A stretch of DNA of 64,000 bases from Haloglycomyces albus DSM 45210 (GTDB lineage Bacteria; Actinomycetota; Actinomycetes; Mycobacteriales; Micromonosporaceae), in contig NZ_AZUQ01000001.1 in the NCBI RefSeq assembly GCF_000527155.1, forward strand, positions 3,423,889 to 3,487,888, read 5' to 3'. The notes beneath the pieces were generated by a model. The model did not search any database and was not told the DNA's origin. It worked only from the letters and a program-made list of their open reading frames with translations. Below are positions 3,568 to 29,438 of the stretch, piece by piece; the first letter of the stretch is position 1; each line of letters starts with the position of its first letter. A program made the translations under genes and the position numbers.

Positions 3568-3627
3568 TGTTCTGTCGGCTCCTTTTAATTCACTCATACC
3601 ACGGCTCGGTCGGACGGATGCGACATC

Positions 3628-27492: not shown

Positions 27493-27550
27493 AGACTCAC
27501 GATGACGTTTCAGGGTCCCGTTCACCGGACGTCGACCGCCCTGGGAAGGT

Positions 27551-27740
27551 TGACCTCCTCCCCACGGATAAATCCGGGGGATTCCAACCCGAAGGTTGGC
27601 ATGGTCCCCTCGCGGGGGCCATTGGTTCCTGATTCGTCGACCGCACGGCGGCGAGGTCTCCACAGGCTGACACCGCAAGCCCTGCGGAGTAGGCGGTTGC
27701 TTGGCTATCGCAGTTGCCCGGATACAGTTTACTGATATTG
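27551..27740 (-). mobile_element. decayed IS200/IS605 element: TnpB C-terminal remnant and right end
   Basis: Read on the minus strand, one frame gives the last part of a TnpB transposase/nuclease: AYSAGLAVSACGDLAAVRST followed by NQEP and a proline/glycine tail. The element ends in ...GGAATCCCC with a hairpin and GGGGAGGAGGTCAA, the characteristic right end of actinobacterial IS200/IS605 elements. Nothing of the RuvC or zinc-finger parts of TnpB, nor TnpA, remains, so it cannot move by itself. The boundary on the upstream side is approximate. Confidence 0.7.
27560..27622 (-). ncRNA. candidate omega-RNA (TnpB guide RNA) scaffold
   Basis: Three consecutive hairpins on the minus strand, reading right to left: 27622-27601 (ATGGCCCCC / GGGGACCAT, one wobble), 27599-27584 (CCAACC / GGTTGG with a CTTCGG-type loop) and 27580-27560 (CCCC-CGGAT / ATCCG-a-GGGG). 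This array at the 3' end of a tnpB frame is the layout of TnpB omega-RNAs, whose guide would be the roughly 16-20 bases just past the element end (27550 downward). No TnpB remains here, so it would be an orphan scaffold; expression is unproven. Confidence 0.5.
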
Positions 27741-27788
27741 CGCGAACGGCTTGCATCGGACTCACGTATTCAACCGCGCACCGTTGTG

Positions 27789-27829
27789 AGCGGCTAACCC
27801 CACGGACAAATCCGGAGGTCTGCGCCGCT
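27789..27829. repeat. second copy of the terminal hairpin
   Basis: CCCCACGGACAAATCCGGAG repeats the right-end hairpin core CCCCACGGATAAATCCGGGG with two changes and in the same orientation. It is enclosed by an extra AGCGGC / GCCGCT stem. It could be the opposite end of a short non-autonomous element, or an older insertion. Confidence 0.5.
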
Positions 27830-27875
27830 GAAATCTCCGATAACCCCGGTCGCCGTATCACCACGTCCGCTTCGG

Positions 27876-29438
27876 TTACCGATCGCCATCCGAATCGGCC
27901 TCCACACGAAGTGGATGACCTGCCGAGGTGATACACTTACCGCTCTTCAGGTTCCACTGCCAACCGTGCATTTGACAGGTCAAGGTGTTTCCGTCGATCT
28001 TGCCGAATACCGACAGATCGGCCTTCAAATGAGGGCAACGCCGCTGGAACGTCCACTCTTGCATGGTGATGTTCTCCTCGTCCGGCGATTGCTCGGCGTA
28101 CCAACCCTCGGCGTACTGCAGGCGCTCTTCGTCAAGACATTTAAAGAACACGTAAATGAACTCGTTGTACTGCCCGATCCGCGCGGCCGTGAACCGGCAG
28201 GACAAGAACAGCGAATTGACCCAGTCGTTCTCTTCAATATGGAGAAGGTGCTGGATCAGGCGACGCTCGGTTCGAAACCGATAACGCACCTTGCGGCCGT
28301 CGTCGGGAACGATGGTCTTCTCCAAGAAATCGAAGATGACCGACTGCACGATTTCATCCGAATCGTCCGCGGTCAGATCGAACCGGACCGGTCCCCCCAC
28401 ACCCTCGGCAATGAGTTTCGACTCCCGCAACAGCGGTTCGAACCGATCCTGCAGGGTAGTCAGCACATCGATCTCGGGGTGGCTCCAACCCGTCTTGATC
28501 TCGGCAATGCGATCCGCCTGACGTTCTTGGTAATTCCGGAGATGTTCATCCTTATTGGCGAACCACTCCCGCACATCGTCCACCGGCTGGCGCACCTCGA
28601 CGGCGCCGGACGAGTCCAGTTCCACCTGAGTCCCCGGCAGGAGAACGATGTTGTTCTCCCGACCCTGATTTTCCAACCAATCGACATAGACTTGCTGGTC
28701 GGGGAAGATATTGCCAGGATCGTCGAAAACGTCGTTGAAGGCGTACAACTCAGGATCCAGGAAACAGGGAGGTCCGGCGATGGGAAAGACCCAATCGGCG
28801 TTTGCGTCCTCAATGTAGCGCAACGACCGGTCAAATTGCCGATCGCGCTTCTGCTTTCCAAAGGCCCGCTTGGCGTTATCGGGAATTTCGTAGACCATGG
28901 GGTACCAAATCGCACCCGAGAACTGCAGGAGATGCGCATGCAGGGGGCCGTGTTTCAGAAAAGCGGTCAAATCCGTAGGGCGGGCGTCGTTCTGATTCAG
29001 CAAGCGTGTTCCGTCGGCGTCTTCCACCCACAGAGACGAATCGCCAATGGGACCGTCCGTCGGCGAAGTCAAGGCCTGAACCATGACCTTCACGCCTTCG
29101 CTCAACTCCACTATCTTTTCGTTCTCGGTCTTAATGAAGTTATGGAATCCCAGTTCACGCAGTTCATCCTCGAGCTCATCCGTGGGGTACTGCGGAAGAA
29201 TGACCGTCGTGTCCTTGCTGATGTTCTCGCGTAGGTTGTCGGCGTCAAAGTGGTCGCGATGCAGGTGCGAAACATAGAGATAATCCGTCTGCCCCAGCGC
29301 TTTCCAATCCAACCCGGAATTGTCGGGGAAGGGAAACCACGATCCCAGGTACGCGGGATTCACCCATGGATCGGTCAGAATCGTTCCGGCAGCGGTTTCA
29401 ATCAGCATGCTGGCGTGCCCAGTACCGTAAATTCGCAT
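27876..29438 (-). CDS. metallo-beta-lactamase-fold / Rieske [2Fe-2S] fusion protein
   Basis: 520 residues. N-terminal MBL-fold domain (about 1-260): YGTGHASMLIE, DPWVNPAYLG, and the metal motif SHLHRDHFDADNL. A helical middle follows. The C-terminal Rieske domain (about 445-510) has both ligand pairs, CPHLKADL (C-x-H) and CQMHGW (C-x2-H). The same two domains occur, in the opposite order, in CMP-N-acetylneuraminate hydroxylase, so an Fe-S-fed oxygenase or hydrolase is possible. The substrate is unknown. Monocistronic and convergent with nothing; the TnpB remnant lies just downstream. Confidence 0.85.
   Translation of the reverse strand: MRIYGTGHASMLIETAAGTILTDPWVNPAYLGSWFPFPDNSGLDWKALGQTDYLYVSHLHRDHFDADNLRENISKDTTVILPQYPTDELEDELRELGFHNFIKTENEKIVELSEGVKVMVQALTSPTDGPIGDSSLWVEDADGTRLLNQNDARPTDLTAFLKHGPLHAHLLQFSGAIWYPMVYEIPDNAKRAFGKQKRDRQFDRSLRYIEDANADWVFPIAGPPCFLDPELYAFNDVFDDPGNIFPDQQVYVDWLENQGRENNIVLLPGTQVELDSSGAVEVRQPVDDVREWFANKDEHLRNYQERQADRIAEIKTGWSHPEIDVLTTLQDRFEPLLRESKLIAEGVGGPVRFDLTADDSDEIVQSVIFDFLEKTIVPDDGRKVRYRFRTERRLIQHLLHIEENDWVNSLFLSCRFTAARIGQYNEFIYVFFKCLDEERLQYAEGWYAEQSPDEENITMQEWTFQRRCPHLKADLSVFGKIDGNTLTCQMHGWQWNLKSGKCITSAGHPLRVEADSDGDR

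Follow-up and report, generated by a model that had tools for sequence, protein, structure and literature searches.

The ancestor of Cas12 is a relative of TnpB. A guide RNA that is separate from the nuclease gene brings such elements one step closer to systems with dedicated guide genes. Standalone omega-RNAs have reportedly been found for IscB; for TnpB, the literature searched, whose coverage was incomplete, yielded no report of an orphan omega-RNA, although such reports may exist. A known TnpB guide RNA is that of ISDra2, where an omega-RNA (reRNA) of about 150 nt comes from the 3′ end of tnpB plus the right end of the element and takes some 16 nt of flanking DNA as its guide, in an element that has TTGAT at its left junction (PMC8612924). 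This RNA is arranged in the order stem, GAC, stem′, further stems, GTC and guide, with GAC and GTC forming a pseudoknot (PMC10097598). Elements without a transposase gene are also on record. The PATEs of Haloquadratum walsbyi are short, transposase free and multicopy, with IS605-like near-terminal palindromes and no target duplication (PMC3119063). A PATE-like element of Halanaerobium hydrogeniformans, approximately 271 nt long, combines a hairpin at the left end with the final 58 nt of tnpB and an entire right end, and it has no transposase gene (PMC7290912).

A TnpB-less element in six copies

The window, which is the whole stretch of 64,000 nucleotides from Haloglycomyces albus analyzed here, contains a complete 292-bp nonautonomous element of the IS200/IS605 type (PATE/MITE) on its minus strand (Table 1). 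Searching the complete genome, a single contig of 3.54 Mb, revealed six copies of 290 to 292 bp with 95 to 97% identity, the least similar of which was recovered with an E value of 7e-129, and the copies differ by only 3 to 5%. Because this unit occurs six times in the genome, it cannot be a product of chance. The internal deletions and the two ends are the same in all six copies, and the insertion sites are unrelated. The element has no transposase gene, and the longest coding relic is approximately 55 codons. The identification as an element that carries an omega-RNA scaffold is close to certain.

The earlier note had placed a relic TnpB C terminus and an omega-RNA-like hairpin array at 27551 to 27740. 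This extent captures the right half of the element but misses both the left end at 27841 and the multicopy family. The word relic is also wrong, because the TnpB-less unit with its two ends has itself multiplied; a mobile TnpB-less family is the better description.

Table 1. Features of the element in the window (positions are those of the window)
Feature	Position	Strand	Basis
Whole element, PATE/MITE, one of six copies	27550..27841	-	Same two ends at unrelated sites, 95-97% identity
Left junction: TTAT in the window copy, TGAT in 12 other elements	27840..27843	-	Flank comparison
Left end with subterminal hairpin CCGGATTTGTCCG	27798..27841	-	Common to five other copies and solo element L015
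TnpB C-terminal coding relic (NCDSQA..AGLAVSACGD..NQEP), ~24 codons deleted internally	27551..27715	-	Translation versus L001-L003 TnpB, by-eye alignment
Omega-RNA-like scaffold, 139 nt	27550..27688	-	Covariation; 34 of 35 pairs in window copy; covariance model 150.8 bits (window copy in training set)
Scaffold 5′ hairpin; terminal G-U pair broken in window copy only	27672..27688	-	Covariation, pair count per copy
Core stem CCTG (27666-27663)/CAGG (27631-27628)	27628..27666	-	Compensatory change GACG/CGTC in two distant relatives
First of three consecutive hairpins	27601..27622	-	Folding and covariation
Second hairpin, CCAACC/GGTTGG	27584..27599	-	Folding and covariation
Third hairpin, right-end palindrome	27559..27581	-	Folding and covariation
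Right end GGGGAGGAGGTCAA	27550..27563	-	Pattern scan
Potential guide CCTTCCCAGGGCGGTCGACG, host DNA behind right end	27530..27549	-	Position, analogy with ISDra2

Both ends carry near-terminal palindromes. The left and right hairpins share 19 of 21 bases, and the CCGGATTTATCCGTGGGG core of the third hairpin repeats the left-end hairpin. The left junction was compared in 13 elements, namely the six mini-elements, the three TnpB elements and four solo ends. In 12 of them, all but the window copy, it reads TGAT, of which the AT already belongs to the element as its first two bases. This junction is common to TnpB elements and mini-elements, and TGAT is likely both the target site and the TAM.

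The solo elements are 54 bp long (L015:1501-1554, L016:1478-1531, and the minus strands of L019 and L020; near G000:C1 1025194, 3356380, 1913613 and 718035, respectively). Each of them joins a left end to a right end inside the shared 21-bp subterminal repeat, with TGAT to the left, and probably arose by deletion from one hairpin repeat to the other. The minus strand of L017 near 1492-1531 (G000:C1:2032841) presents a near-perfect palindrome, TTGACCTCTTCCCCCGGATTTATCCGTGGGAGGAGGTCAA, built from a right end. A candidate paralogous flank, L023, was rejected as a short coincidence within another gene.

The element lies 35 bp downstream of a co-oriented gene of 520 codons (window 27876-29438, minus strand), whose product has beta-lactamase-fold, SCP2_Rv3818-like and Rieske domains. 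Copy L008 (1499-1501) starts exactly at the stop codon of an upstream co-oriented frame, and on the minus strand of L020, near 1474-1476, a second element is inserted exactly at the TGA stop of the upstream frame; insertion at stop codons is explained by the TGA contained in the TGAT target. No promoter consensus was found, and transcription of the element by read-through from the upstream gene is possible.

TnpB remnant, resident TnpBs and transposase

The minus-strand frame NCDSQA..AGLAVSACGDLAAVRSTNQEP matches the C terminus of three intact TnpBs encoded in the same genome (L001 to L003; DNRDSQA..AGLAVSACGD....KQEP), in agreement with the TnpB homology claimed by the earlier note. The frame reads YPGNCDSQATAYSAGLAVSACGDLAAVRSTNQEPMAPARGP... 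and lacks approximately 24 codons between SQA and AGLAVSACGD with respect to these proteins. The three intact TnpB elements, with genes of 440 codons each, have ends of the same kind as the mini-element, so that the related right ends and full TnpBs sought in this genome are both present. Their TnpBs contain Cas12f1-like_TNB, OrfB_IS605 and HTH domains, score above the NCBIfam guided_TnpB cutoff and match the solved ISDra2 TnpB chains. Judged by motif (GIDRG, LEDL and NADVNAARN), the RuvC residues look to be in place.

The closest of the resident TnpB right ends and scaffolds are only 73 to 74% identical to those of the mini-element, and two more TnpBs of the genome (L004 and L005) belong to another subfamily. 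In 150 relatives and in GTDB genomes, where records near the genome itself may be left out, no parent TnpB element of the mini-element's subfamily was found, with nothing closer than 54 to 58% TnpB identity. A plasmid search retrieved two weak matches only, both at TnpB or transposase genes. No Y1 transposase was found in the genome; therefore, the element spread earlier or by means of a transposase since lost.

Scaffold fold, relatives and guides

In stability, the fold of the 139-nt scaffold exceeds those of its dinucleotide shuffles (z = −2.86, with 1 of 200 as good). In an alignment of 18 right ends (six copies, one further orphan, three resident TnpB elements and eight right ends from other actinobacteria), a structure of 35 pairs is formed in 92% of the cells, a percentage favored by the fact that the structure was drawn with the same 18 sequences in view. 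The two-sided changes found at 16 of the 35 pairs, which none of 500 shuffles equaled, are harder to explain in this way. Sliding the partners by one base, as a control, reduced pairing to 46% or less. All six copies keep 34 to 35 pairs, with the full 35 in L007, and the differences among them mostly preserve pairing. The omega-RNA layout proposed from the letters alone is thus upheld, with its three consecutive hairpins, its IS200/IS605-type right end (which finishes at 27550, one base below the start given in the earlier note, 27551) and a potential guide directly behind it. The GTC at 27554-27552 and the GAC at 27658-27656 are compatible with a pairing like the ISDra2 pseudoknot; both are kept in most of the aligned sequences, without two-sided changes.

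Variable sites among the six copies amount to 9 of 102 in the scaffold core versus 12 of 55 in the middle (P = 0.03), and a split between scaffold and middle chosen after inspection gives a P value of 8e-4. In a second family, described below, the same comparison gives P values from 1e-4 to 0.14, depending on the copies used. This pattern is suggestive of constraint on the scaffold, with a mixed significance that is not reached in every subset.

A covariance model from the 18-sequence alignment scores the scaffold of the window copy at 150.8 bits, with this copy itself in the training set. It retrieves ten strong matches in the genome (the six copies, the three TnpB elements and a further orphan), all of which, including the orphan L018, were in the training alignment. 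This further orphan omega-RNA without TnpB (L018/L118; G000:C1:152629-152774, minus strand) is divergent and single copy and lies upstream of a secreted-protein-like reading frame. The model has matches in 48 of 399 genomes of the order. Of 89 sampled loci from other genomes, 83 have a TnpB match where one is expected, at the 3′ end of TnpB, and 6 have none; this result supports the model as an omega-RNA detector.

One of the six loci without a TnpB match (L141) looks like a decayed TnpB. Three others (L164, L165 and L190) are copies, within one genome, of a second TnpB-less mini-element of approximately 310 bp with the same layout as the window element. Relatives with 79 to 91% identity in three more species of the same genus extend this family to at least four species, in another genus than H. 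albus (L164:1550-1859 on the plus strand, L165, L190, L238 and L242 to L244; 79 to 98% identical overall). TnpBs are present in all these genomes, and Y1 transposases in the four genomes of the second family. Two sequence features recur upstream of the scaffold in both families, a TANNNT-like motif and the stretch GCGATArCCAAGC (window 27741-27688, minus strand; L164:1640-1700); in the second family the stretch sits in a perfect 10-bp hairpin. The TANNNT-like motif is too short to be claimed as a promoter signal upstream of both scaffolds.

The 20 bases behind the 13 elements have no second site in the genome: they match their own flanks only, besides two partial matches at chance level, so the search for guide targets advised in the earlier note brought nothing above chance. 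Matches confined to own flanks are expected if the target is the empty site, which an insertion destroys, and absence of function fits them equally well. When viral contigs were scanned for TGAT followed by 16 bases of each of the six guides, the window guide gave one match and the other five gave none. It lies in a 4.4-kb IMG/VR contig (L249, minus strand 3570-3589) with TGAT and 17 nt of the guide, and thus stops one base beyond the 16 searched. Chance alone would give approximately half a hit in the six scans together (an estimate that takes the collection as roughly 40 Gb), and the match was judged to be chance and not a phage target.

Possible use of the scaffold in trans and comparison with known systems

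Our main reading is that of a nonautonomous element, spread in trans, that carries an orphan omega-RNA serving a TnpB encoded elsewhere; as a whole, we give it a probability of about 0.5. Internal deletion of a TnpB-bearing element would have generated the mini-element, with both ends and the complete scaffold retained, and a transposase acting in trans would have multiplied it to six copies. With each insertion, a different stretch of host DNA, some 16 to 20 nt long, would come to lie immediately behind the scaffold, and transcription, for example by read-through from a co-oriented upstream gene, would then yield an omega-RNA without a TnpB of its own. A TnpB from another locus would take up such an orphan and be directed to cleave the matching empty site beside TGAT; repair from a sister copy would then bring the element back, in line with the model put forward for ISDra2 (PMC8612924). 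Such a hypothetical orphan guide, active in trans, is plausible and compatible with all of the results. That a TnpB uses the scaffold in trans, now or during the spread, is a tentative proposal with somewhat less than even odds. In favor of the main reading are the six copies with common ends and deletions, the three resident TnpBs with related ends, the covarying scaffold kept in all copies, the TnpB 3′ ends that the model finds elsewhere, the second family in another genus, the TGAT junction common to both kinds of element, the lower number of variable sites in the scaffold core and the guides that match only their own flanks. Against it stand the TTAT and the one broken scaffold pair of the window copy, the lack of a Y1 transposase, of a TnpB of its own subfamily and of a promoter consensus, the resident scaffolds at 73 to 74%, and a scaffold constraint that is not significant in every subset.

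A passive PATE/MITE comes close to an even chance. Here a transposase in trans spread the element, the scaffold was kept only by descent, and the element neither produces an omega-RNA nor depends on one; the right-end hairpin would be needed for transposition and the remainder of the scaffold would be a young leftover of tnpB. Little decay is expected at 3 to 5% divergence, PATEs without a known guide function are common (PMC3119063), and the tests of scaffold constraint are weak. The passive account is harder to reconcile with an independent second family that is 79 to 98% identical over four species, with a scaffold less variable than the middle in some comparisons, and with differences among the copies that mostly keep pairs. 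A domesticated guide RNA, with a role in phage defense through TnpB or in the control of a host gene, could draw on the single IMG/VR match and on the known TnpB-derived, guide-RNA-directed transcription factors (TldR; PMC13418256). It is very improbable, given that five guides have no viral match, that chance would yield about half a hit in the six scans, that no guide has a second genomic match, and that the resident TnpBs look catalytically intact by motif. The TnpB C-terminal codons and the private changes of the window copy, including its junction base, would suit a single decayed TnpB relic still at the site of its parent element, but five more copies with the same deletions and ends at unrelated sites refute it, and it retains next to no probability.

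If the main reading is carried further, TnpB-less elements would be guide-RNA parasites: the guide of each copy would enlist resident TnpBs in trans against its own empty site, one nuclease would be the shared retention enzyme of many mini-elements, and the strategy would have had two or more separate origins in the order. This extension is rather doubtful. Multicopy elements that keep the scaffold, lack the nuclease and sit beside intact TnpBs make the action of omega-RNAs in trans directly testable in nature, as they do the help of TnpB in retaining elements that do not encode it.

At the gathering thresholds of Rfam, the window has no match. The HgcC family (RF00062) matches both the element and the right end of the L003 TnpB over its full length (model 1-130) with 21 to 26 bits (window 27538-27660 and L003:1338-1466, both minus strand); at 23.8 bits versus a gathering score of 50, the element was not filed as HgcC. 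The HgcC consensus closes with GGGGAGGAGGUCAG, as IS200/IS605 right ends do; possibly, HgcC is a family of TnpB omega-RNAs in its own right.

The window scaffold resembles the ISDra2 omega-RNA in its derivation from the 3′ end of tnpB and in the order of its stems, and it would be compatible with a GAC/GTC pairing. In contrast, ISDra2 encodes its nuclease in the same element, whereas the window element has none. The PATEs of H. walsbyi are likewise short, multicopy and transposase free, with near-terminal palindromes, and the accessible part of their description does not mention retention of an omega-RNA scaffold (PMC3119063). The PATE-like element of H. hydrogeniformans, as presented in the accessible part of its report, has the same layout as the window element, which is therefore anatomically of a known kind; it is, however, a single copy, versus six here, and was described before omega-RNAs were known, with no RNA fold or guide function considered in that part (PMC7290912).
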